NCBI RefSeq assembly: GCF_000152825.2
Contig: NC_014414.1
Coordinates: forward strand, 1,426,001 to 1,490,000
Direction of reading: 5' to 3'
Length of the DNA stretch: 64,000 nucleotides
DNA from: Parvularcula bermudensis HTCC2503
GTDB taxonomy: Bacteria; Pseudomonadota; Alphaproteobacteria; Caulobacterales; Parvularculaceae
Of the stretch, positions 32,250-59,182 are shown one piece after another. Positions within the stretch are counted from its first letter, which is position 1; every line of letters begins with the position of its first letter. A program made the translations under genes and the position numbers. Under the pieces are notes generated by a model that worked only from the letters and a program-made list of their open reading frames with translations, made no database searches and was not told the DNA's origin.

Positions 32250-32296
32250 CGGATGAGGGAACAGGCGGGTCGAGATCGACCGCTGGGGAGTGAGCT

Positions 32297-33136: not shown

Positions 33137-33169
33137 GTCGGTTCTGTGGTGAAGAGATAGCGAGGCACG

Positions 33170-35009: not shown

Positions 35010-36965
35010 TCATGAAAATTGTTCGAGCTGCCGGAAAAAATCAAGGGACTCAGGGTTAGCAAGAGCACTTGCGTTCCGAACCTCTCGATTATTCAAGATG
35101 CATTTCACAGCTATTTCCGCCAGCTTTCCGCTCCTTGTCCGAGGCAAATCCGGTGCCGAAAGGACGTAAGCAGGCACGTGATTGACAGTTAATTCACGGC
35201 GAATGCGTTCTTTTATGGCCGCAATAAGCTCATCGGTCAGGTCCTGACCGGCATCCATCTGGACAAATAGCACAATCTGCTCATCGCCCCGGGCCTGATA
35301 GCCAGCTGCCAAGCAGTTGAGCACCTGATTGAAGGTCAAGACCTCGGCATAAATTTCGGCGGTGCCCATTCTGATGCCCTGCGGATTGAGGGTCGCATCA
35401 GATCGTCCCAAAATGACATATCCCCCATGGGCCGTCCGTTCGATCAGGTCGCCATGGGTCCAAATGCCCTCGAACTCTTCGAAATAGGCGCCGCGATATT
35501 TCAGGCCCTCGGGGTCGTTCCAGAAATAGACAGGCATGGACGGGAAGGGGCGCGTACACACCAATTCCCCGGCGCCGGTGGGAATTGAGTTCCCGTCCGG
35601 ATCATAGACGTCCACCGCCATGCCGAGCCCCGCCATCTGGATCTCGCCGGAATAGACAGGGCTCGTGGGGTCGCCGAGCACGAAACAGGAGGACAGATCC
35701 GTCCCGCCTGAAATCGAGGCAAGGTGCAGATCTGATTTCACACTGGCATAGATATATTCGAAATTATCGGTGGAGAGCGGCGATCCTGTCGACATGAGAC
35801 AGCGAAGCTTGCTGAGATCCCGGTTCTCGCCAATCGGCATTTTCCGCTTCCGGCACATGTCGATATACATGGCCGACATGCCCAAATGGCTGACGCCGAT
35901 TTCTTCGGCGAAGGCGAACAGCATGTCCTTTTCCGGCACGGAAGGGTTGCCGTCATAGAGGGCGATGGCGGCGCCGTTCGCCAAAGCCGGGATCATCCAG
36001 TTCCACATGATCCACGCGCAGGTCGTGTAGTAGAACATGATATCGCCAGGCTGCAGGTCGCAGTGAAACCGGTGCTCCTTCATCAGCTGCAAGAGCGGTC
36101 CGCCCGCCCCATGGACGATGCATTTCGGGGCGCCCGTCGTGCCGGAGGAGTAAACGATGACGGCAGGATGATCGAAGGGAAAGCACTCGCCGGGGACCTC
36201 ATCGGTCTCGGCCGTCTTGAGGAACGCCTGATAGGTCTGACTATTCGGCAGATCGTCGAGACTGGGGCTCTCTGTAAGGGTCTGAAGCACGACAATCCGC
36301 TCGACGCTCGGCAGGGACTGCAGCAATTCTTGATAGATCGGCACGCAATTGCGCTCCCGCCGTGCCACGCGGAAGCCATCCACGGCGAACAAGATCTTCG
36401 GTTCGCTTTGCGAGAAGCGCTGCTTGAGGGATTCGACACCGAAATCCGGGGCGCATGAGGTCCAAATGGCGCCGAGGCTGAGGGTCGCGATATACATAGC
36501 GACACTTTCGGGGCGATTGGTGACGACGCCCCCAACGCGGTCGCCGGCGGTGACCCCCGCCGCCTTGAGGGCATGGGCGAGCTGTCCGACGGCGCGGCGA
36601 AGCTCACCGCGGGTCCATTGGCTCGTTTCGTGATCTTCGCAGCGGAAATAAATGGCCGGATCGTCCGCCTTGCCCCGAAGCAGGAGATTGGCCGCCGACA
36701 GGCGCGCCTCCGGGAAAAAACGCCGCTCCCACATCTCGCCGTCGTCGCGGAGGACGGTCGACGTATCGCCTTCCAAGGGAAAGTCGACAACGTCCCGGAC
36801 CGCCTGCCAGAACGCAGAAGGCTGGTCGATCGACCAGCGCCAGAGGGCGGCGGTGTCCGTCCCCGCAAAGCCGTATTTCTCGCCCATTGAGCGATTGAGC
36901 TGACGCATGGCGGTAGCGTCCGCCCTTGCCTCACTCGGTGTCCAGAGATGATCACCCTGCGCCAT
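35010..36965 (-). CDS. Acetoacetyl-CoA synthetase-type acyl-CoA ligase
   Basis: 651-aa ANL-superfamily enzyme. The AMP-binding loop VIVYSSGTTGAPKCIVHG, STGSPLS, and ILGRSDATLNPQGIRMGTAEIY, plus the C-terminal catalytic Lys in TRSGKLAEI, match acetoacetyl-CoA synthetase in length and motifs. The known reaction joins acetoacetate to CoA with ATP. Here the gene lies 62 bases after a free-standing ACP gene, so loading a beta-keto starter onto an ACP is a possibility, along with ordinary ketone or PHB metabolism. Confidence 0.85.
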   Translation of the reverse strand: MAQGDHLWTPSEARADATAMRQLNRSMGEKYGFAGTDTAALWRWSIDQPSAFWQAVRDVVDFPLEGDTSTVLRDDGEMWERRFFPEARLSAANLLLRGKADDPAIYFRCEDHETSQWTRGELRRAVGQLAHALKAAGVTAGDRVGGVVTNRPESVAMYIATLSLGAIWTSCAPDFGVESLKQRFSQSEPKILFAVDGFRVARRERNCVPIYQELLQSLPSVERIVVLQTLTESPSLDDLPNSQTYQAFLKTAETDEVPGECFPFDHPAVIVYSSGTTGAPKCIVHGAGGPLLQLMKEHRFHCDLQPGDIMFYYTTCAWIMWNWMIPALANGAAIALYDGNPSVPEKDMLFAFAEEIGVSHLGMSAMYIDMCRKRKMPIGENRDLSKLRCLMSTGSPLSTDNFEYIYASVKSDLHLASISGGTDLSSCFVLGDPTSPVYSGEIQMAGLGMAVDVYDPDGNSIPTGAGELVCTRPFPSMPVYFWNDPEGLKYRGAYFEEFEGIWTHGDLIERTAHGGYVILGRSDATLNPQGIRMGTAEIYAEVLTFNQVLNCLAAGYQARGDEQIVLFVQMDAGQDLTDELIAAIKERIRRELTVNHVPAYVLSAPDLPRTRSGKLAEIAVKCILNNREVRNASALANPESLDFFRQLEQFS

Positions 36966-37027: not shown

Positions 37028-37270
37028 TTAGCTGACCTTCGGTTCGAGAACCTTCATGATTTCGGCAACCGACGACATTTGCTCGGTTTCTTCCTGACCG
37101 AGTTCGATATTGTATTTTTCTTCGATGGCGAAGGTGATGTCGACATGGGCCACGGAATCCCAAAGTTCTTGATTTTCCATGGATGTTTGCTCGGTCACCT
37201 CAGCCGCTTCGACCCCGATATTGGAGGCGACGATTTCCCGGACGTCGTTCAGCAATTCATCTCTTGTCAT
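37028..37270 (-). CDS. Acyl carrier protein
   Basis: 80 aa, acidic, four-helix ACP. The phosphopantetheine site is Ser39 in ELWDSVAHVDI, followed by IEEKYNIELG. It differs from the housekeeping ACP, which usually has GADSLDTVELV. GAGGGG precedes the ATG and overlaps the stop of the small membrane ORF. The PKS2 phosphopantetheinyl transferase could activate it. Confidence 0.9.
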   Translation of the reverse strand: MTRDELLNDVREIVASNIGVEAAEVTEQTSMENQELWDSVAHVDITFAIEEKYNIELGQEETEQMSSVAEIMKVLEPKVS

Positions 37271-37280
37271 GTTGGACCCC

Positions 37281-37400
37281 TCACTTGCCTGCGCGCCCAG
37301 CTTTGGCCACCTGGCCGACGAAGTTCAAGGAGAAAAGCAAGAATAGGGCCAACAAGCTAAGAACAATGACATCGCGCCATGTTGCAGTTGCGAGATGCAT
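37281..37400 (-). CDS. Small single-pass membrane protein (39 aa), predicted
   Basis: An ORF of 39 codons starting at ATG 37400, ending TGA 37281-37283, ten bases before the ACP start. The product has a short polar N-terminus, a hydrophobic helix (VIVLSLLALFLLFSLNFV) and a basic tail (KAGRAGK), the layout of a tail-in one-pass membrane peptide. No Shine-Dalgarno sequence is obvious. The strict hydrophobic block and tight coupling to the ACP gene argue that it is real. It could dock the ACP or ligase at the membrane. No homologue is recognised. Confidence 0.45.
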   Translation of the reverse strand: MHLATATWRDVIVLSLLALFLLFSLNFVGQVAKAGRAGK

Positions 37401-37774
37401 GGGATAGGGTTGCAATGTGGGGGAGCTGGTGGATTTCCCTCTGTTTTTCCATGGGGTTGTGGGGCTCTACGCTGGCCATTGTGGCCGTGTTTTGGGTGGA
37501 TGGTGCATGGGACGACTTTAATCGACATTAATGTCAGTGCTGGCGTAACTTTTACTTTGTCGCGCGGCTGTTAGGTTAGCCAAAGTAATGCGTGGTTGAG
37601 TGCTGTGGCTCTTTCTGTCATCTATTGTACTGTTGGGGTGCGCGGCTGTTCTTTGCTTTGGCGAGTGAAGCTGATGGGATTGGGCGACACGCGAGTTTGC
37701 GGGCGAGGGGCTGAGTTGCACGAATTGTGCAGCGCTGATCGGCGATTTTCCGCAGGCGCGGTTGTGGTGGGTAT
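37401..37774. promoter_or_regulatory. Divergent control region of the synthase cluster
   Basis: 374 bases between the minus ACP group and the plus PKS operon. It holds a perfect 12-bp palindrome GACATTAATGTC (37524-37535) and a hairpin whose arms are TTACTTTG + GGCT and AGCCAAAGTAA (37552-37588). Local sequence is more T-rich than its flanks. These are good operator or attenuator candidates. Short ORFs on both strands here look random. Confidence 0.5.
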
Positions 37775-38269
37775 ATGGTAGCAGACATGTCAGATCTCCC
37801 GGATTTGGACGAGGCTTGGGAAATGGCCGAGCTTCGGGGGCTGATCGATGGTCTCGATTCCTCTGACGAGCCGGTGCAACGCGGCCTCGACTTCAAGCGT
37901 GTCGTCCAGGATGAGCAACTTCGAAATCTCGGTGTTCATCTGTGGAGAGAGTATCAGGCAAAGATCTCGGTCAGCCGGGAGAAGTTCGACCAGGCCCTAG
38001 AAGCGGAAAATTTGACCCTGGCGGATCTTTGGGCGCCAGGGGTGACCGAAGATATCGATGTCGGCAGCAGTAGCGAAGATGTCGACGCTTTCAAAAAGAA
38101 GCTGATGTTCCGGATCCAGATTCTGGAGGTTCTGTTGAACATCAGCCGAGCGGATTTGGAACGGGCGGAACGGTGGCAGCCGCGGGATGCGGTCCCCGAA
38201 CCGGACGAGGACGCGGCAGGCGCTGAGGCGTCTCATTTTCATGGGCATAAGGCGGGAGATACGGAATGA
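37775..38269 (+). CDS. Unknown protein translationally coupled to PKS1
   Basis: 164 aa, acidic, mostly helical, no signal peptide or membrane helix. The C-terminal tail is Asp/Glu-rich and ends in a His cluster (SHFHGHKAGDTE). I do not recognise a family. Its stop overlaps the PKS1 start (ATGA, 38266-38269), so it is made together with PKS1. Roles such as a docking or chaperone subunit are guesses. The start at 37775 has no clear Shine-Dalgarno sequence; Met5 (37787) is an alternative. Confidence 0.6.
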   Translation: MVADMSDLPDLDEAWEMAELRGLIDGLDSSDEPVQRGLDFKRVVQDEQLRNLGVHLWREYQAKISVSREKFDQALEAENLTLADLWAPGVTEDIDVGSSSEDVDAFKKKLMFRIQILEVLLNISRADLERAERWQPRDAVPEPDEDAAGAEASHFHGHKAGDTE

Positions 38270-41200
38270 GCAATTTGGCGAATTCGGCGACAGGCAAACG
38301 CGACTTCGCGATTTTTGCATTGACGCCGAGCGGGCTCGACAATGTGGATCTCGCCATCGCCGCTTCCCGCGCCGGGGGCGTGGGGGTGCTGAATGCCGAG
38401 TATGGGGAAAATCCCGAAACGGCCGGGGGGCTGCTCGACCACCTTGCCAAGCACGCCCGGGGGGATTTCGGCATCTTGTTGCCGAAAGCGGAAGGGGCTT
38501 GGCTTGACCTCGTCAAGAGCGCCCAGACCCGCCCCCCCTTCGTCGTGGTGCCGGTTGATGGGCTGAGTGCCCGCGGGGTGGAAGAGCTGAAGGCGCTTGG
38601 CTGTACCGTTCTGGGACAGTTGACCGGCTGGAGTGAGGGCGCCGCGGCCTTGGCGGGCTTGGTCGACGGCTTTTGGTTGAAGGGGCATGAGGCCGGCGGG
38701 CTCATCGGAGAGGAGACCAGTTTCGTTCTCCTCAATGATATCAAGCGTCACACGGATCTGCCGCTTTTTGTCCGTGGTGGAATCAACCGCGAATCGGCGG
38801 CGGCCTGTGCCGTGGGGGGCGCGTCGGGGGTGGTGCTCGACGATCAATTGCTTCTGCTCGCTGAATCTCCGCTCAAGGAGCCGCTCGGCCTTGCGCTCAA
38901 GCGGTTCTCCGGGGTGGAAACCATTCTCGGCGAAGACCAGCACGGGGAACGCTATCTGCGCTTTTGGGGGCTGCCGGGCACGCGGACTGCCCGCGACCTG
39001 CGTGATGCGATCACCGCCGCCGGTGATGTGCATAAGGAGCATATCGCAAAGCTGGGATGGACTCTCGACGCCGAGGCGGAGAAGGTGCCGCCTCTCGGGC
39101 AGGACGGGGCGGTCGCCAGCTATTGGGCGGCGGAGTTCGGTAAGGTTTCAGCGGTTCTCAAGGCGATCCGTCAAAGCGTGAAGGAGCTGCCCCGGCGGGC
39201 CGCTCGGGCCGATATTCTGCAAGAGGGGTCCCCCCTTGCGGAGGCCCACGGCACCCGTTTCCCGATCGTCCAGGGACCCATGACGCATGTCAGCGACACC
39301 GCCGATTTCGCGGTGGCTGTCGCGGAGGGGGGCGGGCTCCCCATGGTGGCCGTCTCCCTGATGCGGGGCGAGAAGGTCAAAGATCTCCTGATGGAAACCG
39401 CTGAGAAGATCGGCGACAAGTCCTGGGGCGTGGGGATGCTCGGCTTTGTGCCGACCGAGACCCTCGCCGATCAACGGGCGGCGATCCTCGCGGCCAAGCC
39501 CACTTTTGCGGTGATTGCCGGTGGTCGCCCCGATCAGGCGCGCGAGATGGAGGAGCAGGGGATCCGCTCCTATCTCCATGTGCCCTCGCCAGTGCTCCTC
39601 GAGCAATTCATCCAGAATGGCGCCAAGAGCTTTATTTTCGAGGGCCGGGAATGCGGTGGCCATATCGGCCCCGTGGGGAGCTTCGTTCTCTGGTCGATGA
39701 TGAGCGATGCCCTGCTCGCCGCAAATCTCAGCCGCGAAGAGGCGGGCAAGATCCACATCCTGTTTGCCGGCGGGATCTTCGATGGGCGCAGCGCGGCCAT
39801 GGCGCAGGTCATGGCGACTCGGGTGGCTGAAGCCGGCTTTAAGGTCGGCATCCTGATGGGGACGCCCTATCTCTTTACCGAAGAGGCGGTCACCGCCGGG
39901 GCGATCAACAAGACCTTTCAGGACGTTGCTATTGCCGCCACGGCGACGGCAAGCTGCGCCACGGGACCGGGCCATGCGAGCCGCTGTGTGACCTCTCAGT
40001 TCGTGACGGATTTCCGGACCAAGCGCACGACCATGGCGCGAGAAGGCAAGTCCGGCTCGGAAATCAGTGAAGAACTCGAGGCGATGTCGCTGGGGCGGCT
40101 TCGCCTGGCCTCAAAAGGGGTGTCCCGCCCCGCGGATGGCTCGCGCCGTTACGAAGAGCGCAGCGAAGAGGAACAGCGCGAAGGCGGCATGTATATGATC
40201 GGCCAGACCGCCACGCTGTTGAGCGAGGTGACGACGGTCGAGGCGCTTCACCGGGGGGTGTGCGACGGGGCTCAAACGACCCTCAGCGCATTCGTCCGGA
40301 CCCTGCCGATCGAGGCCAAGGTCGTGGATCAGACCCCCGCCGATATCGCGATCATCGGGATGAGCGCGATCCTGCCTGGGGCCAAAACCGCCGAGCAATT
40401 CTGGGAAAATATCCTCGGAAAAGTGCACGCCATCAAGGAAGTGCCCGAGCATCGCTGGGATGTGGATCAGTTCTTCGACCCCGAAAAGGGCAAGCGGGAC
40501 AAGATCTATTCCCGCTGGGGCGGCTTCATCGACGATGTTCGCTTTGATCCGATGCGGTTCGGCATGCCGCCGAATTCGCTCGAATCGATCGACCCCATGC
40601 AGCTCCTCGGCCTTGTCGCCATGGATGAGGTCATGAAGGACGCTGATCTGTGTCCGAATGGTCTCGATGGGGAAAATACATCGGTGATCCTCGGGTTTTC
40701 CGGCGGTCTTGGTGAGCTTGGGATCAAATACGCAGCGCGGACGGAGATGTACCGGTCTCAAGGGTATGTGGATCCTGAGGATCTCGACTTTATGCCCGAA
40801 TGGACGTCCGACAGCTTTGCGGGGCTGTTGCCGAACGTTGCGCCGGGGCGGATCGCCAACCGGTTCAATCTCGGTGGCGTCAACTTCACGGTCGATGCGG
40901 CCTGTGCCTCCTCCTTGGCGGCGATCTATCAAGGCGTGCTCGAACTTGAGACGGGGCGCAGCGACCTCGTTATCGGCGGCGGTATCGACACCGTTCAGGG
41001 ACCCTTCGGCTTTACGTGTTTTGCCAAGGCCGGGGCGCTATCCCCCCGGGGCATGTCGAACACCTTCGACGAAAAGGCCGATGGGATCGCGATCTCCGAA
41101 GGTCTCGCCATGATCGCCATGAAGCGCCTGTCGGACGCCGAGCGGGACGGTGACAAGATCCTGGCCGTGATCAAGGGGATTGCGGGCTCTTCTGACGGGA

Positions 41201-44200
41201 AGGCGAAGGGGCTGATGGCGCCGCTGCCGCGGGGGCAAATGCGGGCGCTCCGCCGGGCCTACAATCAGGCGGGATATTCTCCCGCCACGGTGGGGCATTT
41301 CGAGGCACATGGGACCGGTACGGCCGCGGGGGATCGCGCTGAAATCGAAAGTCTCAGCACGGTTCTTCTGGAAGAGGGGGCCGAGCCCCGTAGTGCGGTG
41401 GTGGGGTCGGTGAAGACCAATATCGGTCACACCAAATCCTCAGCCGGGGTAGCTGGGCTGATCAAGTCGATTTGTGCCCTGAACGATAAGATATTACCGC
41501 CCCATCGCGGGGTCGACGTGCCGAACGAAGCCTTCACCAAAGAAGGCTTCCCGCTGCATGTCTCCCAGGAGGTGCGGCCGTGGTTCGCCAGTGCCGGCCC
41601 CCGGCGGGCGAGCGTCAGTGCCTTTGGCTTTGGCGGCACCAATTTCCACGCCACGCTCGAAGAATATACGGGCGACTATCGCGAGGCGCAGCCCCTCGCC
41701 CGGCGCTGGCCGGTGGAGCTCTATGTCTGGCGGGAAGAGAGCAAAGACGCCCTGATCGCGGCGATGATGGACACCCTGTCCGCCCTCGATGCGGGGGGGC
41801 AGCCGCACGGGCCCGATCTCGCCCTCAGCTTGGCGGCCAAGGCGGCGCCCGCGGGGCTTGGGGCGGCAATTGTGGCCTGCTCCGTCGATGTGCTTCGGGA
41901 AAAGCTCCGGGGGCTGATCGGTAACATCAATCAGCCGAACGACATCGATCGTCCGGCGGGGGCCTATTATTCTGGCAAGTCGAGCGCCGATGCGGGTCAA
42001 CTGGCGGTGCTGTTCTCGGGGCAGGGGTCGCAATACCCCGACATGTTCCGCAAATTCGCCGCTTACAATGCGGCGATGCGGGACCGGATCGAACTCGCCG
42101 ACAAGCAGACCCGGTCGAGCGAAACCTTCCGTGATGGAAAGCGCCTTGCGGAGCTGATCTACCCCGCCGATCGTTTCACCCCCGCTGAGGATAAGGCCGC
42201 GAAACAAGCCTTGATGCAGACCGAGGTGACGCAGCCGGCCCTCGGCGCCGTTGAGGCGGGCCTCTGGGCGGTGCTGTCGGCGATGGGGCTCACGCCGGCC
42301 ATGGCCGCCGGGCACTCCTATGGCGAGTTTGCCGCCCTTCATGCGGCGGGGTCGATCACGGCCGAAGAGCTCTTTGCCATCTCCGAGGCGCGGGGGCGTC
42401 TCATCTCCAAGGCGTCGTCCGGGGGGGATCTGGGGGCGATGGTCGCGGCATTGGGGCCGATCGAGGAGGTCCGCCGCGTCGTGGGCGACATGGACGATGT
42501 CTATTACGCGAATTTCAACGCGCCGCGGCAGACGATCCTGTCCGGTGGCAAGGACGCCATGAAGGCGGTCGCTGACAAGCTCGACGCGGCGGGGATCAAT
42601 GCGAAGATGCTGCCGGTCTCGGCGGCCTTCCACTCGCCCTACATGCAGCCCGCGAGCGAGCCCTTCAACAAGGTGCTGGGCGACATCGACTTCAAGGCGC
42701 CCCGCTTCCCGGTGTACGCAAATGGGACAGCGGCCCCCCATGACCCTGCCTCCTTGGGGGCGGCCATGGGTGCCCATCTGACGGGACCGGTGAAATTCAC
42801 CGAAACGGTGGAGCGGATGCACGCCGATGGCGCGCGCATCTTCCTCGAAATCGGCCCGAAAACCGTGCTGACGGACCTCGTGAAGGCCAATCTTCTCCAA
42901 AAAGACTTCACGGCCATCAGTGTCGACGGCCATGGGGGCGACCTTGCCGGGCTCTTCCACGGGATCGGCGAATTACACGCCGCTGGGGTTTCGCTCGATT
43001 TGGCACCCCTCTTGAAGGGTAGAGCCAAGCGAATTGACCTCAGAAAGCTCGCGGAGATCCGCCTCGAGCCGCCGATGTCACAGCATGAGTGGCTGATCAA
43101 TGGAACCTATGCACGGCGCCAAGACCAAGTGGTTCACGTCCAAGCCCCGCAGCGGGACACCCCCGCTCTTGGGGCGCCGGGCGCGGGCGCTGCGGTTCAT
43201 GGGGCCCCTAATGGGTCTCTCAATGGATCTGACAATGGATCTGAGGCGCTTCCCGGCGCGGCCCCCCATGGGGCCGGCGGCGCGGCTTCGGCGCCTCAAG
43301 CACCCAACGGCCCGGCCAATGGGACGGGCCCATCCCCTTCTGCGTCGCCATCCCTCCCCGAAGGATGGCGCCGTATCACCGGCAGCGCGGCGCACGGCCT
43401 CGCCGGCTCCCGGTTTTCTCTCACCAATGGCTCAGGAGACAATGCGATGACCTACGATCCACCGCACGGCTCGCCCCTGATGGGTGACGCTGCGCTGCGG
43501 GAATATTTCGGCGTAATGCGCCAATTTCTGCAAACCCAGGAAAGTGTGATGCTTTCCCTCGCCGGGAACGGCGCCGGTTCTGCCATGGCGTACGAAGCCC
43601 ATCAGCAAACGGCGATGCCCGCTCCGGCGCCGGCCCCGCTGGCGTTGCCGCAACCTGCCGCGCCCGCGCCCCAAGCCGCGGCACCGGCCCCCGCGCCTGT
43701 TGCAGAACCGGCCCCGGCGGTGAACGGTCACGCGCTGAACGGCCATGCGAATGGCGCCCATATGAACGGCGCGCATGCCGAGCCGGCCCCGGCCCCGGCG
43801 CCCGCACCGGCTCCTGCTCCGGCCCCCGTGGCCGAGGCGGCCCCGGCCCCTGCGGCCGCGCCCGCGCCTGCGGCGGCTGGCAGCATCGATGTCAAAGCGA
43901 CCCTGCTCGACATCGTCAGTGACCGGACCGGCTATCCTGAGGACATGCTGTCCATGGATGCCGATATCGAAGCCGATCTTGGGATCGACTCGATCAAGCG
44001 GACCGAAATCCTCGGTGCTATGCGCGGGGCCTTGCCCGACAGTGCCACCGATGCGCTCGAAGAGCGCATGCAGGATCTCTCTAAGGCGAAGTCGCTTTCT
44101 GAGATCGAAGGCATCATTGCCGGCGTGGTTGGAAGCGCCGGGGGGGCGGATCAGCGCCCTTTTGAGTTAAGCGGGGAGGCAACGCCGATTGTGCCGATTG

Positions 44201-46761: not shown

Positions 46762-46769
46762 GAGATGGT

Positions 46770-49700
46770 ATGACGAAGCCCCTGGATATCGCCATTGTCG
46801 GCATGGACGGCATGTTCGCCAAAGCGCCGGACAAGGAGATCTTCTGGTCGAACATCCTCAATAAGGTGAATGCGATCACCGAGGCCAGCGACGAGTGGCT
46901 GGGTGAGGAACGCCTGCTCGACCCCGATGCGCCCCTCGAAAAATTGCGGATCTATACGCGTCGCGGGGGCTTCCTGCATGATATTTCGCGGTTCGATCCT
47001 CGGCCCTATGGCACCATGCCGATCTCGGTTCTGGGCGGCGAGGCCGATCAGTTCCTGGCCTTGCATGGAACGGCCCTGGCCCTGCGGGATGGCGGCTATG
47101 GCGAGGATCGGGATTTCGATCGCAGCCGCGTTGGGGTGATCTTCGGCCATGCCATTCACGCCAATCGGGGCAATGTGAATGGCTTCCAACACGCGATCAT
47201 GGTCGATCAGGTGCTGCATACGCTGGACCATCTGTTGCCGGATATGTCGGATGCAACCCGCGACGAGGCGGAGAAGATTCTCCGTAAGCGGCTACCGAAA
47301 TTCAGCGTCGATACGCTCCCCGCTCTGGTGCCGAATATGATGACCGGGCGGATCTGTAACCGCCTCGATCTTCAGGGGCCGAATTATATCCTTGATGGCG
47401 CCTGTGCCTCGACATCGCTTGCGCTTTTGGCGGCGGCGGATGAGCTGCGATCGGGTCGCGCCGATATGATGTTGGCGGGCGGGGTGAACACCACGACCTC
47501 CAGTCTTGTTTACGGGGTCTTCTGTCAGCTGGGGGCCCTGTCCCGGAACGAGCAGGTGCGGCCGTTCTCCGCCCATGCGGATGGGACCTTGCTCGGCGAA
47601 GGGCAGGGGGTCTTCCTTCTGAAGCGTCTCGAAGATGCCCTGCAGAACGAAGATCAAATCCATGCCGTGATCAAAGGGGTAGGGATTTCATCGGACGGAC
47701 GATCCTCTGGCCTCATGGCGCCCTTCCAGCGGGGCGAAGAGCAAGCCATCGCCCGCGCCTATGAGAATACCGGGATCGACCCGAACAGTATCGATCTGCT
47801 CGAAGCCCACGGGACCGGGATCCCGCTTGGGGATCGGACAGAAGTCAACGCCATGCGCGCCGTGTTCGGTGAGCGCACCGGCGGCGTCCCCCATATCGCC
47901 CTAGGCTCCGTGAAATCGATGGTGGGGCACACCATTCCCGCCGCCGGAGCGGCGTCCCTCATCAAAGTCACGATGGCGTTGAAAGAGGGGATCCTGCCCC
48001 CGACCTTGGTGGAGGAGCGCAATCCTGATCTCGGTTTGGAAACAACCCCCTTCTACTTGAACCGCGAGCCGCGCCCATGGCTGCGGCGGAAGGATCAACC
48101 GCGCCGTGCGGGGATCAACTCCTTCGGGTTTGGCGGCATCAATTCCCACATCTCCGTCGAAGAGTCGCCCTATGCATCGATGAGCGACTTGCCGGTCTTT
48201 GGGACGCGGCGAGTTTGGGGCCCGGAACTTTTTACCTGGGCGGCAAATTCCAAAGAGGACCTGCTGGGCACTCTCCGCACGGCTCAAAATGCCCTGGCGG
48301 AGGGGGAAAGTTCGCAGCAGGCGTTCACGACATTCGCGGATCAAACGGTGGATAAGGCCGCAAGCGATGGCGGCAACCATCGTCTGGCCTTTGTCGCGAA
48401 GGATTTCGACAGCCTAAAGAAAAAGCTCGAAACGGCCGAAAAACGTCTCGCCGACAAGGATGAAGCGGACTTTGGCATCGTCAAATCGGGCATCTTCTAC
48501 GCCAGTGACGCCAAGCAGGGGAAGGTCGCCTTTATGTATCCCGGTGAGCATTCCCAATATGCCGGGATGCTGTCCGACATCCTCTTTACCTCGCCGACGA
48601 CCCATCGCTGGATGGAGCGGCTTGAGGACCTGTTTGGCGACAGCCGCGCCATCGCCCATCGGCAGCTCCTGTTCGGGCCGCGGGATGAGTACACGGAAGA
48701 AGAACGCAAGCTCGCCGATGAGACCCTCGCCCGGGTCGAAGAAGGCTCAGAGGCCGTGTTCTTCACGGACATGGCCTATTTCCGCCTCCTGTCGAGCCTT
48801 GGGGTAAAGCCCGATGCGATGATCGGCCATTCCACCGGCGAGAATGCCGCCCTGATTTCGTCCAATGTGATCGGTCTCAACGAAGAGGGGGTCAGCAATT
48901 TCATCCGGTCGATGAACACGATCTTCCAATCGATCGAGGAGCGGGGAGAGATCCCCTCGGGCACATTGTTGAATGTCGGGGCGGTTGCCCCCGAAGCCAT
49001 TCAGGACGTACTCGGCCGCTTTCCGGATGTTCGCTTCACCATGGATAATTGTCCGAACCAGGCGATTATTTTCGGACCGAAGGATGTGATGGAAACCGTC
49101 GGCAAGGAGCTGGCGGGTAAGGGGGGCGTGGTAACGCCGTTGCCCCTCTCCTGGGCCTATCATACTGAGTTCATTAAGCCATTGGCGGATGAATTCCACG
49201 CCCTGTTCCAGGGCGCGCCGATCGGTGAGCCGATCGCCACACTCTATTCTTGCTCAACCGCTGAGCCTTATCCCGATGCGCCTGCCGATATTTTCGACAC
49301 GGCCGCTCAGCAATATATGACGCGTGTACGGTTTACCGACGTGATACAGCGTATGTATAATGACGGTGTGCGGAGCTTCATCGAGGTTGGGGCTGGGTCG
49401 AGCCTGCAGGGCTTTGTGAAGGATATTCTCAAAGCGGATGACGTTCTGGTGGCGAGCTGTGACAATCGTAAGCGCAGCCCGTTGGAAAGTCTTCTCACTC
49501 TTCTGGGGCAGCTCTTCACCGTACAGCTCCTGCCCGATGCGGCGGTCCTCAAACCGACTGTGCGGACGGATTACGAGAATGTCTCGGACGATCCGCGCTT
49601 GCCGAGTGAACTGCCCCTGATCCATCTCGACGAAGACTCGGCGGAGAAACTGCGTCAGACCTTGAAGGTGACGTCGAGCGGTGCGCCCGCCGCCTCCGCC

Positions 49701-50528
49701 GGTCAGGCGGCGCCGTCGGCCCCGAGCTCTCAGCCTTCACCAGCGGCACCTGCTGGCGTTGCGCCCGCGGCGCAGCCGGGCGGGGCAAGACAAACGGTCG
49801 AGCCGGTGTTCCATCGGATTGATCAAATGCTCGCAGTGCCCCAAAGCGTGAGATTATGGCGTGCCCAGGTCGCCGATCGTCCGTCGGAGGACGACCTTCA
49901 GCGGTGGGCCACCCGCCTTGATGAGGGGACCCGGAACGAGTGGGTCCAGCGCTTCGCGAAATCCCATCCGATGCGGCGTCAGGAATGGTTGCTCGCCCGC
50001 ATCCTCGCAAAACATGCGGTGGCGGATTATCTGGGGCTGCCGAGTGGTGACCCGGTCGTGATCGGACAGCACGCCTCAGGCCAGCCGATGGCGGTTGTCA
50101 CCCACGCGGGGGCCGTGCCCACGGCCGCTCCGCCCCTCAGTATTGCCCATAAGGACGGCATGGCCGTCATCGGTGTCGGCGCCTCTGCCATCGGGGCAGA
50201 CATCGAACGGGTTGGGATCGTGCGCGACAGTGTCGGCATGGCTGAGCGGATCCTGACCGACGATGAGCGATATTATCTCGACCAGGCGCGAAGCCGCAGC
50301 GCGGCCCTCGTGACGTTCTGGGCCTTAAAAGAGGCGACGGCGAAATTGCTGGCGGCTCCTTTTGTTGGGCAGGAGCGGGCCTTTGTTGTCGACGCCATCC
50401 GCGAAGATACGGGAGAGGCCATGGTCGGCTTTGCCGGAACGATGGTCCGGGCTTCCTTCCGGGTCGTCGGTGAATATGTGTATGCCGTGGCCTATTACGA
50501 GGCGGCGGCGGCGCAGGCGGCGGAATAG
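46770..50528 (+). CDS. Synthase subunit KS-AT-phosphopantetheinyl transferase
   Basis: About 1252 aa from ATG 46770; GTG 46758 overlaps the PKS1 stop and is an alternative. KS is residues about 5-440 with Cys212 (DGACASTS), EAHGTGI and VGHTIPAAG, a full triad, so it is not a chain-length factor. AT is about 590-900 with Ser688 (GHSTGE) and His798 (WAYHTEF), but the usual GQGSQ is GEHSQ and the Arg that binds the malonyl carboxylate aligns with Met. A Ser/Ala/Pro linker precedes a C-terminal phosphopantetheinyl transferase with Asp1144-x-Glu1146 (GADIERV) and WALKEATAK (Lys1187). It can activate the ACP of PKS1. The two genes are one operon. Confidence 0.88.
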   Translation: MTKPLDIAIVGMDGMFAKAPDKEIFWSNILNKVNAITEASDEWLGEERLLDPDAPLEKLRIYTRRGGFLHDISRFDPRPYGTMPISVLGGEADQFLALHGTALALRDGGYGEDRDFDRSRVGVIFGHAIHANRGNVNGFQHAIMVDQVLHTLDHLLPDMSDATRDEAEKILRKRLPKFSVDTLPALVPNMMTGRICNRLDLQGPNYILDGACASTSLALLAAADELRSGRADMMLAGGVNTTTSSLVYGVFCQLGALSRNEQVRPFSAHADGTLLGEGQGVFLLKRLEDALQNEDQIHAVIKGVGISSDGRSSGLMAPFQRGEEQAIARAYENTGIDPNSIDLLEAHGTGIPLGDRTEVNAMRAVFGERTGGVPHIALGSVKSMVGHTIPAAGAASLIKVTMALKEGILPPTLVEERNPDLGLETTPFYLNREPRPWLRRKDQPRRAGINSFGFGGINSHISVEESPYASMSDLPVFGTRRVWGPELFTWAANSKEDLLGTLRTAQNALAEGESSQQAFTTFADQTVDKAASDGGNHRLAFVAKDFDSLKKKLETAEKRLADKDEADFGIVKSGIFYASDAKQGKVAFMYPGEHSQYAGMLSDILFTSPTTHRWMERLEDLFGDSRAIAHRQLLFGPRDEYTEEERKLADETLARVEEGSEAVFFTDMAYFRLLSSLGVKPDAMIGHSTGENAALISSNVIGLNEEGVSNFIRSMNTIFQSIEERGEIPSGTLLNVGAVAPEAIQDVLGRFPDVRFTMDNCPNQAIIFGPKDVMETVGKELAGKGGVVTPLPLSWAYHTEFIKPLADEFHALFQGAPIGEPIATLYSCSTAEPYPDAPADIFDTAAQQYMTRVRFTDVIQRMYNDGVRSFIEVGAGSSLQGFVKDILKADDVLVASCDNRKRSPLESLLTLLGQLFTVQLLPDAAVLKPTVRTDYENVSDDPRLPSELPLIHLDEDSAEKLRQTLKVTSSGAPAASAGQAAPSAPSSQPSPAAPAGVAPAAQPGGARQTVEPVFHRIDQMLAVPQSVRLWRAQVADRPSEDDLQRWATRLDEGTRNEWVQRFAKSHPMRRQEWLLARILAKHAVADYLGLPSGDPVVIGQHASGQPMAVVTHAGAVPTAAPPLSIAHKDGMAVIGVGASAIGADIERVGIVRDSVGMAERILTDDERYYLDQARSRSAALVTFWALKEATAKLLAAPFVGQERAFVVDAIREDTGEAMVGFAGTMVRASFRVVGEYVYAVAYYEAAAAQAAE

Positions 50529-50647
50529 GCTTAAGACTAAGGACAACCAGGCCGCGGGGGCGGGGCCCAGCCGCCCCTTCGGCTTTTCCGACCACTCTCA
50601 GCTTTCTGGTCGATCTCTCCACAGTGGGAGAGACCACCGGCGCGCCA

Positions 50648-50680
50648 CAAAAAACCGGCCCGCCATGGGCGGACCGGTTT
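50648..50680 (-). terminator. Bidirectional rho-independent terminator
   Basis: AACCGG-C-CCGCC, loop ATG, GGCGG-A-CCGGTT: a 12-position stem with one mismatch. On the minus strand it is followed by TTTTTT, so it ends the esterase gene; on the plus strand only TTT follows, so it may partly end the PKS operon. Confidence 0.75.
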
Positions 50681-50727
50681 CCCGTCATATCGGTCTTTTC
50701 AGCTCAGTCAGGGGAGGGGGAGCGCTC

Positions 50728-51723
50728 TTACCACTTCCCTTCGCTGAAGAACTGCCAGATCGCACTTTCAGCATTGAATGTCTGGGTGGTCTCGATATCG
50801 AGCGCTTTTTGCCAGAATTTGGGTTCCATGCCCGGCCAGGAATGGCCGCCCCCGCGAATGACGCAATATTGGACCGCACTACAGGACGAATAGCAGATCG
50901 TATCGGGTGTCTTTTGGGTCGATTGAATGCTGCCTGAGCATTTGTTCTCACGGCGCCAGAAATCGATCGTCTGCTGCACGGAGGGATAGGAGTCGGCATT
51001 GTTCGCCAAGCTCAAGCTGCCTGAGCCTCCCTCTAGAGGAATATTGGAGTCCTCGGTCCCATGGATGTGGAGGACGCGGACCGGTTTGCTGGGATTGCAG
51101 GATCGGGTGGTCATGGTGGCCGCGACCGGGGCGATCGCTGCAATTGTATCGGACATCCGGCAGGCCAGGAGATAGCTGAACATGCCCCCCTTGGAGATTC
51201 CCGTGGCATAGATCCGGCGTTGATCCACTTTATAACGCCGTTCGATGTCTTGGAGCATCGCCCGGACAAAAGCGACATCGTCGACCCCGCGTTTTTCCGC
51301 AGAGCCCTGGTTCAGTCCGCTGCCGGCGTTCCAGGTGCCGCCATTGGCGCTGCGCCCCTTTGTGCCATTTGGAAACGCCACGAGGATGTTCGCCCGTTCG
51401 GCCAGCTTCGGCAAGCCGCTGAAATCGGCCATATTTTTCGCATTTCCGCCGCCGCCATGGAACGCCATGATGAGCGCCGTTGGCCGCTCGGAATTCAAGT
51501 TGCGCGGGACGTAGAGCAGATAATTGCGGGTCATCCCCCCGGCCCGTACGTCAAATTGGACGAGGCCTTTCTCCGCGGGGGTGCCCGTCGAGCCGCGCCC
51601 TGGTTCAGGGGGCTGGTTCCCATTGTTGCGATAGCCCGGACCGGGGCCGCAGGATATGAGCACGAGGGACAACAGAAATGCTGTAACCCCCTTCAGCAAA
51701 AAAGAAGGTGTCTTACGGGGCAT
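50728..51723 (-). CDS. PHB-depolymerase-family esterase, predicted lipoprotein
   Basis: 331 aa. A signal peptide ends in a lipobox LISC (Cys25), so it is likely an outer-membrane or periplasmic lipoprotein. The alpha/beta-hydrolase core has AFHGGGGNAKN, nucleophile Ser in GISKGG, Asp in HIHGTEDSNI, and His in GGGHSWPGM. Family members split PHB oligomers, feruloyl esters or related esters. Together with 28472-29413, it flanks the synthase genes. Substrate unknown. A Gly/Asn/Pro-rich linker (residues 26-50) follows the lipobox. Confidence 0.8.
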   Translation of the reverse strand: MPRKTPSFLLKGVTAFLLSLVLISCGPGPGYRNNGNQPPEPGRGSTGTPAEKGLVQFDVRAGGMTRNYLLYVPRNLNSERPTALIMAFHGGGGNAKNMADFSGLPKLAERANILVAFPNGTKGRSANGGTWNAGSGLNQGSAEKRGVDDVAFVRAMLQDIERRYKVDQRRIYATGISKGGMFSYLLACRMSDTIAAIAPVAATMTTRSCNPSKPVRVLHIHGTEDSNIPLEGGSGSLSLANNADSYPSVQQTIDFWRRENKCSGSIQSTQKTPDTICYSSCSAVQYCVIRGGGHSWPGMEPKFWQKALDIETTQTFNAESAIWQFFSEGKW

Positions 51724-52004
51724 AGGATCACTCCAAATCTTGGCCGCTTTCCACCGCTAGCAGTCGTCTCGATCAAGTCCATAGTGAGATCCACCGCCGC
51801 CTCTAATTGGCCCGATCCCTGCTATGATCTTGGTCTGTATAGACAACTGCCGGGCAGTGGTCTTAAATGATATAACAGTAATGCCTAAACGCCCGAGACC
51901 GCATCGAGTTCTTGCGGCGGTGCAAAAAAAACGGCATATTGCGGTGCATATAAATGCGCCGTCGTGAATAGGGTGGTGGGCAACCACCTGTTGGGAGAGT
52001 GGCT

Positions 52005-52283
52005 GTGAATTCCGCTGATATTGATCGCGCCGTCGTCGGCATCCTGGAACGGTTTACCGACGATTGGGGCGTCGACCATCAGATCACCCCTGACTCGCAA
52101 ATCGTGGCCGATCTCGAATTCGAGTCGATCGATGTGATCCAGCTCGTGGTCGCCATCGAGCAGCATTTCGGCATCCGCAATATGGGATTTGATGAATTGC
52201 TGATGAAGGACGGCAAATATGTCGACGACCTGACCGTCCGGCAAATTGCGGACTTCATTAACAAAAAGATCAACGGCGCCTGA
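52005..52283 (+). CDS. Acyl carrier protein
   Basis: 92 aa, start GTG 52005 with GGGAGAG upstream; GTG 51999 would add two residues. The phosphopantetheine Ser41 lies in DLEFESIDVIQLVVAIE, with Glu in place of the common Asp before Ser, as in several free-standing ACPs of lipid or polyketide pathways. It sits ahead of the phosphodiesterase and hydrolase genes on the same strand. Confidence 0.88.
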   Translation: MNSADIDRAVVGILERFTDDWGVDHQITPDSQIVADLEFESIDVIQLVVAIEQHFGIRNMGFDELLMKDGKYVDDLTVRQIADFINKKINGA

Positions 52284-52375
52284 CGATGGGGGAGGCACGG
52301 TCGTCTTAAGTCGGACGATGTGGGACTGGCCTCGATCGCGGCGAAATAGAGTTAAATTGGGAAGTGGGAAGAACT

Positions 52376-53974
52376 ATGGTCAAGACACTCTTTATCGGAA
52401 TGGATGGCGCGACCTTCACGGTCCTCGATCAGCTGACCAACGATCCCTATGGCGAAGGCGTGACCATGCCTTTCATGCGAAAGGTCATGAATGAGGGCTT
52501 CCACGCCAAATTGCGGTCTACGCCTCACCCCTTAACCCCGCCTGCCTGGACATCGCTGGTCACCGGACGGTCGCCCGGGCACCATGGTGTCTATGATTTC
52601 GTGCGGTTTGAGGATCGGGGGAACGAGATGTTCTTCACCCTCTACGATTCCCGGGACATTCGGAAAGAGACAATCTGGTCGATTGCGAGCCGTCAGGACC
52701 GCTCGGTGGTGTCGCTGAACTTCCCCATGATGGCGCCGGTCAACCCGGTGAATGGCTCTTTGGTCCCGGGCTTTGTCTCCTGGAAGCACCTCAAGATGAA
52801 TGTCACGCCGCCTGAGCTTTATGACCGGCTCAAGGGGATCGACGGTTTCAACGCCAAGGAACTCGCCTGGGACTTCGAGCGGGAAGCCCAGATCGGGGAG
52901 CAGATGAGCCAGGATGAGCTTGAGCGCTGGGTCACAGAACATATGCCGCGTGAGGAGCAATGGTTCCGTATCGCCGAGGCGCTGCTCAAAGAGGATCAAC
53001 CCGACATCTGTGCGGTGATGTTCGACGGCACCGATAAATTGCAGCACCAGGTCTGGCACGTGCTCGATCCGCAACGGATCGAAGCGGGTCTGAGCGATGA
53101 GGACAAACGCCTCAGGGAGATGGTGCTCAACTATTTCCGGACCCTGGACAGCTATGTCGAGCGTCTGGTCGGTCTCGCCGGCGACGATGTGCAGGTCTTC
53201 TTCGCGTCCGACCACGGATTTACCGGGTCTGAGTACGTATTCCGGGTGAACCGTCTGCTGGGCGAACTCGGCTATCTCAAATGGCGGAAACACGAGGGAT
53301 CGGACGCCGATAAGCGGCGCGAAGATGCGAATTTCGCGGACCTCGATTGGGAACACACAAAAGCGTTCTGCCCGACGCCGTCGAGCAATGGCATTGTCAT
53401 CCGCCTCGCTGAAAATGAGGGCGATCCCGGCGTGCCGATCGAAGAGTATTACGAGTTCCGGCAAAAGCTGATCGACGATCTGATGGCCTTCGAACATCCC
53501 GAGGGCGGGCGGCCCTTCATCCGCGATATTCTTTTGCGGGAAGAGGTTTTCCCGGGCATTGCCCGACGGGAAGCGCCCGATCTGACGCTGATCCTCGACG
53601 ATTACGGCTTCGTCTCGGTGAAGGACCGGGCCCCGACGATCATCAAGCGGCCGGTGATGATCGGGACGCACCATCCTGACGGGATCTTCCTTGCCTATGG
53701 GAACGGCGTTGCCAATACGAGCGTCGATCTCATGAACATCATGGATGTCGCCGCGATCCTCGTTTACAGTCTCGGCCTCGATATTCCCGAGGACTTCGAG
53801 GCAAAGGTTCCGGACGAATTGTTCACGGAAGACTATTTCCGGAGCAATCCGGTGAAAATCGGTGATCCGACCATGGCGGTCCAATTCAACCGTCAGGGGA
53901 CGGAGGGAATGTCAGATCACGATAAAGAGAAGATCTTCGATCAGCTCCGGGCATTGGGCTACCTCGAAGATTAA
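52376..53974 (+). CDS. Type I phosphodiesterase/alkaline-phosphatase-superfamily enzyme
   Basis: 532 aa from ATG 52376, with GGGAAG upstream. Metal ligand Asp10 (IGMDGATF), nucleophile Thr59 in PPAWTSLVTG, then DGTDKLQH, SDHGFTG and GTHHPDGI complete the two-metal site of the nucleotide pyrophosphatase/phosphodiesterase group. No signal peptide, so cytoplasmic. The reaction could be hydrolysis or transfer of a phosphate-bearing headgroup. It follows the ACP by 92 bases. Confidence 0.85.
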   Translation: MVKTLFIGMDGATFTVLDQLTNDPYGEGVTMPFMRKVMNEGFHAKLRSTPHPLTPPAWTSLVTGRSPGHHGVYDFVRFEDRGNEMFFTLYDSRDIRKETIWSIASRQDRSVVSLNFPMMAPVNPVNGSLVPGFVSWKHLKMNVTPPELYDRLKGIDGFNAKELAWDFEREAQIGEQMSQDELERWVTEHMPREEQWFRIAEALLKEDQPDICAVMFDGTDKLQHQVWHVLDPQRIEAGLSDEDKRLREMVLNYFRTLDSYVERLVGLAGDDVQVFFASDHGFTGSEYVFRVNRLLGELGYLKWRKHEGSDADKRREDANFADLDWEHTKAFCPTPSSNGIVIRLAENEGDPGVPIEEYYEFRQKLIDDLMAFEHPEGGRPFIRDILLREEVFPGIARREAPDLTLILDDYGFVSVKDRAPTIIKRPVMIGTHHPDGIFLAYGNGVANTSVDLMNIMDVAAILVYSLGLDIPEDFEAKVPDELFTEDYFRSNPVKIGDPTMAVQFNRQGTEGMSDHDKEKIFDQLRALGYLED

Positions 53975-53995
53975 TCGCGCCAAGGGGGTTTGGCC

Positions 53996-54892
53996 ATGGA
54001 AGTTGTCTCGTGCCGGGGGGCGCAAATCAGCGTTACCCAGCTTGATCCGCTGGGGGCGGAGCGTCCCAATGCGCCGGACATCGTCCTGGTGCATGGGCTC
54101 GCAAGCAATATGGCCTTCTGGTATGGCGGCGTCGCGATGATGCTGCGGGCCTTCGGTCGGGTGACTGTGCTTGATCTGCGCGGCCACGGCCTCTCTTCCA
54201 TGCCCGCTACCGGTTACACGGCTGAGGCCATGGCGGAGGATTTGTCCGATGTGCTCGATTTCCTCGGTCTCGATCGGGTGTTTTTGATCGGCCATTCCTA
54301 TGGTGGCCTGGTCAGCTTCTGCTTTGCCACCAATTGGCCGGACCGGGTCCGGGCCTTGGTCCTCGCCGACTCTCGCCTGCCCGTGGTGCAGCCCCGTATG
54401 GCCCTTGGCAGCTGGTCACAGGGGGGCGCGCTGAAGGGGATGCTGAAGGAGCTGGGGGTTGTTCTCGATGAGAATGACGGTGAATTCGGCGTCGCCCTGC
54501 TCACAGCGATTGCGCGGCTGAAACTCGAAAGCCCCGAACGCGCGGCGGTTCTTGAGCAAAAAGTGATCAATAGCGGTCGGGTCATGGGAAAGCGGTCGGC
54601 CAAACGCTGGATCGAGCTGCTCGATAACACGACCGCGGCCAAAGATTTCCAGTTTGGGACCGACCGCCCCGTCGAGGCCTTGAACGTGCTGAAGGCGCCG
54701 ACCTTTGCGCTTTACGGGCGCAAGAGTATGACGCTGAAATCCGGCGTCGCACTGGCGCGGGCATGTCCAAGGGCGCGGTTCCATGTCATTCCTGGGGCAG
54801 GGCATTTCTTCCCCGCATCACGGCCAAAGGAATTTGCCATGCGTACGGCGGCTTTCTTGACCCAAGAGGGCGGGATCCGGCCCGCGGCCTAA
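53996..54892 (+). CDS. Alpha/beta hydrolase
   Basis: 298 aa. VLVHGLASNMAFW is the oxyanion region, GHSYGG holds the nucleophile Ser, and GAGHFFP the His. AAGGGGG lies upstream of ATG 53996; TTG 53990 is a weaker start. It is the last plus-strand gene of the synthase group and could be a free-standing thioesterase, missing from PKS1 and PKS2. The family is broad, so this is a guess. Confidence 0.82.
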   Translation: MEVVSCRGAQISVTQLDPLGAERPNAPDIVLVHGLASNMAFWYGGVAMMLRAFGRVTVLDLRGHGLSSMPATGYTAEAMAEDLSDVLDFLGLDRVFLIGHSYGGLVSFCFATNWPDRVRALVLADSRLPVVQPRMALGSWSQGGALKGMLKELGVVLDENDGEFGVALLTAIARLKLESPERAAVLEQKVINSGRVMGKRSAKRWIELLDNTTAAKDFQFGTDRPVEALNVLKAPTFALYGRKSMTLKSGVALARACPRARFHVIPGAGHFFPASRPKEFAMRTAAFLTQEGGIRPAA

Positions 54893-59032: not shown

Positions 59033-59182
59033 ACCAGGGTCGATAATAACCGGACGAAAAAGATGAAGTCGCATGAAATATCAATCTCTCTTGCTTAATC
59101 ACAGATGAGAGGTCTTGATGGGCGGCCAGATAAAAAAGCGGGAAACCAAAGGCGTTGTATGGTTTCGGGGAGTAGAGTTGGA

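Follow-up and report, generated by a model that had tools for sequence, protein, structure and literature searches.

A conserved gene cluster of Parvularcula bermudensis combines a two-protein, Pfa-like lipid synthase with a sulfotransferase related to those of polyketide synthases

Introduction

What product is made by a two-protein synthase whose genes recur together with a sulfotransferase? The question is raised by a 64,000-nucleotide stretch of the genome of the alphaproteobacterium Parvularcula bermudensis HTCC2503 (NC_014414.1, positions 1,426,001 to 1,490,000 of the forward strand), which we call the window and whose own numbering is used throughout. The host genome is one contig of 2,902,643 bases, of which the window is a part. 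A first-pass annotation, made from the sequence alone, had marked out a self-activating, fully reducing lipid or polyketide synthase with tailoring genes at 37028-54892, and had proposed a lipid with a phospho- or sulfo-modified headgroup as its product. The analysis reported here suggests, with a probability of about one half, that the synthase belongs to a conserved cluster of patchy distribution, and that this cluster produces a specialised long-chain lipid for export, its chain being sulfonated while bound to a carrier protein. The observations behind this reading are the domains and motifs of the proteins, the recurrence of the same genes in relatives, and, for the sulfotransferase, its sequence kinship and the genomes it shares with such synthases.

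Results

Domain architecture of the synthase

Six ketoacyl-synthase family matches were found in the host genome, namely the two large proteins PKS1 and PKS2 and four short proteins (open frames of 422-450 amino acids). Four bases (46758-46761) are shared by the PKS1 and PKS2 genes. Their domains are as follows.

38266-46761, + strand: PKS1, 2831 amino acids (Pfam, NCBIfam, motif alignment with 13 relatives)
about 38266-39165, + strand: PKS1 NPD1 (Pfam)
about 39238-40275, + strand: PKS1 NPD2, enoyl reductase (ER) (Pfam; FabK-type NCBIfam match at residues 325-670)
40342-41514, + strand: PKS1 ketoacyl synthase (KS) (Pfam ketoacyl-synt, residues 693-958, and Ketoacyl-synt_C, residues 966-1083)
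42010-42900, + strand: PKS1 acyltransferase (AT) (Pfam Acyl_transf_1, residues 1249-1545)
43900-44034, + strand: PKS1 acyl carrier protein (ACP) (single PP-binding stretch, residues 1879-1923, holding LGIDSIKR)
44944-45615, + strand: PKS1 ketoreductase (KR) (Pfam KR, residues 2227-2450)
45853-46674, + strand: PKS1 dehydratase (DH) (Pfam PKS_DH_N/PS-DH, residues 2530-2803)
46758-50528, + strand: PKS2, 1256 amino acids (Pfam, motifs, KS clade)
46785-48008, + strand: PKS2 KS (Pfam, residues 10-417)
48531-49451, + strand: PKS2 AT, read as PfaB-like (Pfam, residues 592-898)
50187-50492, + strand: PKS2 phosphopantetheinyl transferase (PPTase) (Pfam ACPS, residues 1144-1245)

Pfam thus confirmed the orders that the first-pass annotation had given, NPD-NPD-KS-AT-ACP-KR-DH for PKS1 and KS-AT-PPTase for PKS2; the NMO/NPD matches in the N-terminal region of PKS1 fall into three stretches. 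TIGR02813 (PfaA) was the best NCBIfam match of both proteins, PKS1 scoring 973.9 bits, below the cut-off of 1010.1. Pfam, NCBIfam and the motifs together support the proposal that the pair resembles Pfa-type and secondary lipid synthases and carries the domains for iterative full reduction together with a PPTase of its own. Chain length factor (CLF), tandem ACPs, AGPAT and a thioesterase domain were absent from the Pfam matches of PKS1 and PKS2, so that the single ACP with its LGIDSIKR motif and the missing CLF, ACP array and AGPAT were borne out. The predicted absence of a thioesterase holds for the domains of the two proteins, but a candidate is encoded by a separate gene, ABH (53990-54892).

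A conserved gene set with a patchy distribution

The following genes recur with the synthase, or had been assigned to it.

29413-30924, - strand: H503, repeat protein, in 8/8 relatives and fused to ABH in four; propeller-like by eye only
32297-33136, + strand: AlkP, AlkP-superfamily enzyme of 279 amino acids, distantly STM4013-like, with Thr42 in the position of the nucleophile; found in 8 relatives with 55-69% identity
33170-34102, + strand: sulfotransferase (ST, PF13469; Pfam and PDB search), in 8/8 relatives
51999-52283, + strand: ACP2, discrete carrier protein, over the Pfam cut-off, in 6/8 relatives
52364-53974, + strand: PDE, type I phosphodiesterase-like AlkP enzyme (PF01663; Pfam), in 6/8 relatives
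53990-54892, + strand: ABH, alpha/beta hydrolase and thioesterase candidate with Ser103, Asp127 (after strand 6) and His272, in 6/8 relatives
55375-57798, - strand: HlyD-type membrane protein, exporter candidate (Pfam HlyD), in 6/8 relatives
35010-36965, - strand: acetoacetyl-CoA synthetase-like ligase, over the NCBIfam acetoacetate-CoA ligase cut-offs; membership doubtful
37028-37270, - strand: ACP1, over the Pfam cut-off; membership doubtful

AlkP, ST and H503 were found together in eight loci of other genomes: G1022 and G1048 from the same family, G669 and G989 from another family of the same class, and G464, G749, G785 and G825 from one genus of another class. The NPD stretch had led to G669, G464 and G749, and AlkP to the other five, so that the AlkP count partly reflects how loci were chosen; the counts for ST and H503 are free of this effect. 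Seven of the eight carried PKS1 and PKS2; the exception, G1022, has its ligase right at the contig end, and the synthases may lie beyond it (20,000 of 26,663 bases fetched). ACP2, PDE, ABH and the HlyD-type protein were missing from G1022 and from G989 (58,000 of 95,856 bases fetched) and present in the other six. The set recurs in altered order across two classes of the phylum. Neither AlkP nor H503 was found in the fetched stretches of eight other NPD-type loci; one of these, G672, has a weak ST (22%).

The conserved unit therefore reaches beyond 37028-54892, bounds which cut off members on both sides (29413-34102 and 55375-57798). Two genes that had been counted in fare less well. The acyl-CoA ligase scores as an acetoacetate-CoA ligase and adjoins the cluster, together with the protein encoded at 34168-34947, in G1022 only (1/8 relatives). 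Its homologue lies elsewhere in the genome in five of eight other genomes searched (G749, G464, G825, G785 and G332), and none was found at E 1e-60 in G669, G989 and G485. Both extra ACPs are over the Pfam cut-off as claimed, but ACP1 had no counterpart in the fetched stretches of the eight relatives.

AlkP was detected in 3/62 genomes of the host's family (E 1e-20) and in none of nine others of its own genus, in 3/59 sampled genomes of the genus of G464 (a sample that does not include G749), and in 2/198 genomes of the family of G669 (E 1e-40). The NPD-NPD stretch was matched at E 1e-40 in 2/385 genomes of the class and 10/398 of the phylum, some of these matches being partial. This patchy distribution, together with the shared gene set, suggests horizontal transfer of the cluster; the GC contents of PKS1 (0.642), AlkP (0.521) and flank (0.598) neither prove nor exclude it. 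A search of genome contigs found one distant relative.

In a KS tree, the PKS1 proteins of the subtype (window and seven relatives) formed one clade (support 86/93) and the PKS2 proteins another (100/99). Four rows (G023, G022, G006 and G011), in which the motif used for cutting out the domain was not found, are not part of this tree. Proteins from four order relatives (G025, G029, G033 and G037) were rejected as PKS2 orthologues; they are KS-AT-ACP-ACP proteins and form a KS clade of their own. Their loci (L019-L026) also encode a separate KR and a KS-AT protein of 2000-2500 amino acids. The polyketide synthases (PKSs) of six same-family genomes (G004, G006, G011, G019, G022 and G023) were likewise set aside, being KS-AT proteins without an NPD match in the stretches fetched.

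The sulfotransferase and its kinship

The best PDB matches of ST were 4GOX (63.7 bits) and the CurM ST, 4GBM (59.6 bits), followed by 3RNL with 20.2 bits. The PDB title of 4GOX is 'Polyketide synthase', and we take it to be the Ols (olefin synthase) ST. Scores of the first ST copies were 57.0-95.6 bits to 4GOX and 57.1-73.0 bits to 4GBM for the window and six relatives, and 62.4-63.2 and 51.4-61.5 bits for G1022 and G1048. Thirty PF13469 proteins of the class served as controls; they were taken one per genome, best PF13469 match first and one of them from the host genome, and are thus not a random draw. Their maximum was 36.4 bits to 4GOX and 38.2 bits to 4GBM; in 3/30 controls, frame length and listed length were more than 40 amino acids apart. 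All nine first-copy STs outscored 30/30 controls on 4GOX, a kinship above that of other PF13469 members. In a tree of 40 rows (nine cluster STs, five STs from PKSs or non-ribosomal peptide synthetases (NRPSs), and 26 controls), the cluster and PKS/NRPS clades were joined against the controls in 84% of 200 bootstrap trees; the tree omits four of the 30 controls, which were shorter than 150 amino acids, and the STs of G1022 and G1048. Among the sequences sampled, the cluster ST thus stands closest to the PKS STs without being one of them. Its only NCBIfam match was NodProtNoeE, a Nod-factor sulfotransferase, at 25.6 bits against a cut-off of 500.

ST homologues were found at E 1e-12 in 8/398 genomes of the phylum sample, and seven of these eight are also among the 10/398 with an NPD-type synthase match (hypergeometric P = 3e-12; 5e-5 when counted by genus without the host's own genus). 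In the eighth genome, G467, ST is a domain within a 2832-amino-acid NRPS. Four matches on plasmids comprised two cyanobacterial PKSs, an NRPS of Agrobacterium vitis and one annotated sulfotransferase. ST directly follows a carrier domain in all three outside megasynthases looked at, those of Calothrix (KS-AT-KR-ACP-ST-TE in one protein), A. vitis and G467. The kinship to the Ols and CurM enzymes and the link to NPD-type synthases point to a carrier-bound chain as the probable substrate; ST would probably sulfonate this chain, and the resulting sulfate ester would either be kept or be eliminated to give a terminal alkene.

Three further arrangements of ST were observed. G669 (L052 441-1352), G989 (L081 2771-3769) and G1048 (L138) each carry a second, diverged copy within the cluster. 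The G467 NRPS (L127 7168-15663) contains two stretches each of the condensation, adenylation and carrier kinds, ST standing right after the first carrier. On the A. vitis plasmid pRvVAT039a, an A-PCP-ST-TE NRPS (L126 10021-13668) lies beside cysD/cysN, genes of sulfate activation, and a diaminobutyrate transaminase gene (4910-7746, 8677-10002). The locus looks like another small pathway of carrier-bound sulfonation.

A proposed division of labour between PKS1 and PKS2

Catalytic motifs of PKS1 were aligned for the window and 13 relatives (14 rows). The Cys-His-His of KS, Ser-His of AT, Ser of ACP, Ser-Tyr-Asn of KR and GGH of NPD2 were kept in 14/14 rows, and the DH His and Asp were in place in all seven rows having a DH there. 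Both NPDs named by the first-pass annotation are present and NPD2 keeps its motif, but in NPD1 the catalytic His is replaced by another residue in 14/14 rows. NPD1 therefore looks degenerate, and we take it for a partner that assists NPD2 without catalysis of its own. In thraustochytrid synthases of polyunsaturated fatty acids (PUFAs), two ER domains pair as a heterodimer in which both retain the His, according to the accessible text of PMC13311796.

In PKS2, the KS triad (C-H-H) was intact in 9/9 rows having a KS, and the PPTase motif KEA..K was found throughout 11/11 rows apart from one KES..K and one KEV..K. The assumption that the two KS-AT halves have equal roles is not supported: the Arg that binds the malonyl carboxylate was present in 14/14 PKS1 ATs and absent from 10/10 PKS2 ATs. 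PfaB, described in the part of PMC12895367 available as moving long acyl chains, also lacks this Arg. PKS2 therefore resembles PfaB, and may handle the finished chain as a long-chain transferase joined to a PPTase. A long DH-like stretch between AT and PPTase was seen in the alignment for the PKS2 of G464, G749, G785, G825, G669 and G989, with a Pfam PS-DH match shown for G785 only; there is none in the window or G1048.

Hydrolases, AlkP enzymes and neighbouring genes

Pfam also recovered the ST, both AlkP-superfamily proteins and the pair of alpha/beta hydrolases (50728-51723 and 53990-54892) noted earlier. In ABH the acid lies 24 residues past the nucleophilic Ser, as Asp in six rows and Glu in a Streptomyces row, and Ser246 occupies the usual post-strand-7 acid position in 7/7 rows. 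Read by eye from the sequences, the triad is arranged alike in the Calothrix thioesterase that follows ST, with Glu as its acid, and an A. vitis plasmid hydrolase used as a control has Asp at the usual post-strand-7 position. The triad placement thus agrees with a CurM-like thioesterase while the PDB ranking favours plain esterases, and ABH is rated as a candidate chain-release enzyme. ABH and H503 form one protein of 860 amino acids in four relatives, with a DUF6316 stretch between them in the one scanned, and this fusion ties the distant gene at 29413-30924 to ABH at 53990. H503 gave no Pfam or NCBIfam match, and its best PDB match had an E value of 0.25.

The 279-amino-acid AlkP has T-x-P-S-H in 7/7 rows, with invariant D11, D244, H245 and H257. 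Formylglycine sulfatases carry the nucleophile motif C/S-x-P-x-R. A sulfatase of that kind was accordingly rejected, Thr standing at the nucleophile place in 7/7 rows, and phosphate-ester or transfer chemistry is therefore likelier. A 50% identical AlkP is encoded on plasmid p_3 of Mesorhizobium huakuii (L084 2466-16927) among radical-SAM, aminotransferase and BtrH-domain genes. No PKS is annotated near it, and apart from AlkP that locus shows only a weak likeness to PDE; the family may serve other biosynthetic pathways too. The N-terminal half of the HlyD-type protein weakly resembles a membrane metalloprotease (M50-like; daptide_HExxH, 43.8 bits against a cut-off of 300).

Further genes in and around the unit are listed below.

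28472-29458, - strand: second alpha/beta hydrolase of the ABH kind, adjoining H503
31071-32249, + strand: TPR protein heading the TPR-AlkP-sulfotransferase run; 4/8 relatives, 23-48%, the TPR likeness being possibly generic
37775-38269, + strand: orphan open reading frame of 164 amino acids, overlapping the PKS1 start by 4 bases
50728-51723, - strand: lipoprotein-type esterase (alpha/beta hydrolase), scoring above the NCBIfam threshold of type 1 extracellular PHA depolymerase
59105-60571, + strand: TolC-type outer-membrane protein (Pfam OEP), possible exporter partner; 1/8 relatives

The esterase begins with a signal-like stretch and a Cys, and a protein like it occurs in 7/8 relatives (24-38%). 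The overlap of the 164-amino-acid frame with PKS1 looks like translational coupling; the frame had no counterpart in the fetched stretches of the eight relatives. Genes for a GDP-mannose 4,6-dehydratase and an epimerase adjoin the cluster (26279-28481) and have homologues (65 and 57%) near that of G989.

Comparison with known systems

The domain search and comparison proposed by the first-pass annotation place the pair among the Pfa-like synthases and apart from enediyne, Pfa Type A/B and Hgl systems. An enediyne PKS is a single PKSE protein, KS-AT-ACP-KR-DH-PPTase, whereas here ER domains stand at the N-terminus and the PPTase is on a second KS-AT protein. PUFA synthases of Pfa Types A and B have tandem ACPs, a CLF and two DHs; here there are one ACP, no CLF and one DH. 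In the available text of Shulse and Allen 2011 (PMC3098273), a Pfa-like secondary lipid synthase is built on a PfaA-like protein that holds KS, ACP and KR, in many cases accompanied by a PPTase, and these features were found in PKS1 and PKS2 by Pfam, NCBIfam and motifs. The Hgl synthase of the same source has an HglC-like KS-CLF-AT and no DH, while the present one has a DH and lacks a CLF.

That paper lists P. bermudensis, Dinoroseobacter shibae and Gloeobacter violaceus as carriers of a secondary lipid synthase Type O with an uncharacterised product, and gives the PPTase P1b' motif hShxH for Types M-T, O included; the LSIAH of PKS2 agrees with it. The cluster may therefore be the Type O of 2011, as the organism listing and the PPTase motif indicate. 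The string 'sulfo' is absent from the accessible text of the paper, which was the only open-licence publication found to name the three organisms together with 'polyketide synthase'. No link between a Pfa-type or secondary lipid synthase and a sulfotransferase was found in the open-licence literature; one review of marine myxobacteria combines a synthase term with a single mention of 'sulfotransferase'.

A synthase on plasmid pBIND02 of Beijerinckia indica, listed in the available text of PMC3098273 as a Type P carrier, unites NPD-NPD-KS-AT-ACP-KR in one protein, close to which a PPTase protein is encoded; we infer that this locus is the Type P one. It differs in that its PPTase protein shows no KS or AT, two KAS III/type III PKS-like genes intervene, and no ST, AlkP or H503 is present in the stretch fetched. 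The cyanobacterial OLS and CurM pathways share the nearest solved STs and a thioesterase-like hydrolase with the cluster; theirs is one protein, as in Calothrix, in contrast to the separate genes and iterative reducing synthase found here, and the cluster ST falls outside their ST clade. PKS2 shares with PfaB the AT without the malonyl Arg and the KS-AT order of DHA-type PfaB, as far as the source text available describes it, and differs from it in its GHSxG motif (GYSxG in PfaB), full KS active site and PPTase.

Discussion

A long-chain lipid sulfonated on its carrier protein, to which we give about an even chance, could arise as follows. PKS1 would load malonyl units through its Arg-bearing AT and elongate the chain on its single ACP, each turn being reduced by KR, DH and the FMN-type ER (NPD2, with NPD1 as non-catalytic partner), and the PPTase of PKS2 would activate the carriers. 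The KS-AT of PKS2 would take over the finished chain and hand it to the discrete ACP2, a possible acceptor. On the carrier, ST would sulfonate a hydroxyl of the chain, in the simplest case the 3-hydroxyl left by a last, KR-only turn. ABH would free the chain, and the product would then be processed by the two AlkP enzymes and exported via the HlyD-type protein. The order of steps, the 3-hydroxyl, the carrier, the fate of the sulfate and export are all what we infer from the gene set; a retained sulfate ester is a little likelier than elimination to an alkene.

Several observations weigh against this scheme. PKS2 retains a complete KS catalytic triad, and may therefore elongate, and its AT reads GHSTG, keeping GHSxG where PfaB has GYSxG. 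The cluster STs form a clade of their own (100/99), outside the PKS/NRPS ST clade (100/97). The second ST copies score lower on 4GOX: those of G669 (28.1 bits) and G989 (18.7 bits) fall inside the control range, yet lie in the cluster ST clade, and that of G1048 reaches 50.3 bits, with 30.6 to 4GBM. Plain esterases rank first for ABH in PDB searches with the protein, a profile (best 60 matches each) and the C-terminal half (24 matches), and no PKS thioesterase was among the matches listed. A relative of ABH also accompanies a Streptomyces synthase, with no ST annotated in the stretch fetched.

The kinship of ST would also fit olefin-synthase logic distributed over separate genes, in which ST acts on a 3-hydroxyacyl chain, ABH hydrolyses it, and loss of sulfate and CO2 leaves a terminal alkene or an alkene-ended lipid. 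The mechanism is that of the olefin synthase in the accessible text of PMC3903477. The CurM ST and 4GOX are the two best PDB relatives of the cluster ST, and the Calothrix thioesterase shares with ABH the Ser, an acid 24 residues on (Glu or Asp) and a Ser at the strand-7 position. The AlkP enzymes, H503 and the exporter would be needless for a plain alkene, however, and some dehalogenases place their acid as ABH does. The two ABH observations above, its lack of special likeness to PKS thioesterases and its Streptomyces relative, tell against this route as well, and we regard it as rather unlikely. Its fullest form would be a dissociated olefin synthase, self-activating, fully reducing and iterative, in which a PfaB-like AT passes the finished 3-hydroxy chain to a free ACP for sulfonation and a separate hydrolase cleaves it; starting from malonyl-CoA, Alphaproteobacteria and another class of the phylum would then use cryptic sulfonation to build, de novo, long terminal alkenes or lipids for export that end in an alkene. 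This idea we hold to be improbable.

If the synthase instead supplied a long hydroxy fatty acyl chain to a headgroup that ST and the AlkP enzymes modify, the product would be a sulfated surface lipid. The recurrence of ST with two AlkP-type enzymes, esterases and an exporter candidate fits such a lipid, as does NodProtNoeE as the only NCBIfam match of ST. No glycosyltransferase or headgroup acyltransferase was found among the conserved members with a Pfam match, though; the kinship of ST is with carrier-bound chemistry, and the smaller AlkP is not a formylglycine sulfatase by its motif. We consider this unlikely, and of the product first proposed, the lipid appears broadly right, but the modified headgroup is only one reading, ST being nearest to PKS enzymes that act on carrier-held chains. 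An ordinary PUFA or saturated secondary lipid synthase serving membrane phospholipids, with its neighbours there by chance, would explain why PfaA is the best NCBIfam match of both proteins; it is very improbable, since the neighbours recur in eight relatives of two classes and Pfam found one DH and no CLF in the window.

The kind of synthase is itself known; what is new is a conserved subtype, a split of roles between two ATs, and a PKS-type ST as its signature enzyme. If carrier-bound sulfonation by the cluster is correct, it would join this chemistry to Pfa-type secondary lipid synthases, the two being unconnected in the literature found. An orphan synthase, possibly the Type O that has been without a product since 2011, would gain a testable product class and a clear gene set for knock-out. 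The cluster would then represent a compact, two-protein path from malonyl-CoA to a long functionalised chain, and the lipid it makes may be unusual in bearing a sulfate or in ending in an alkene.

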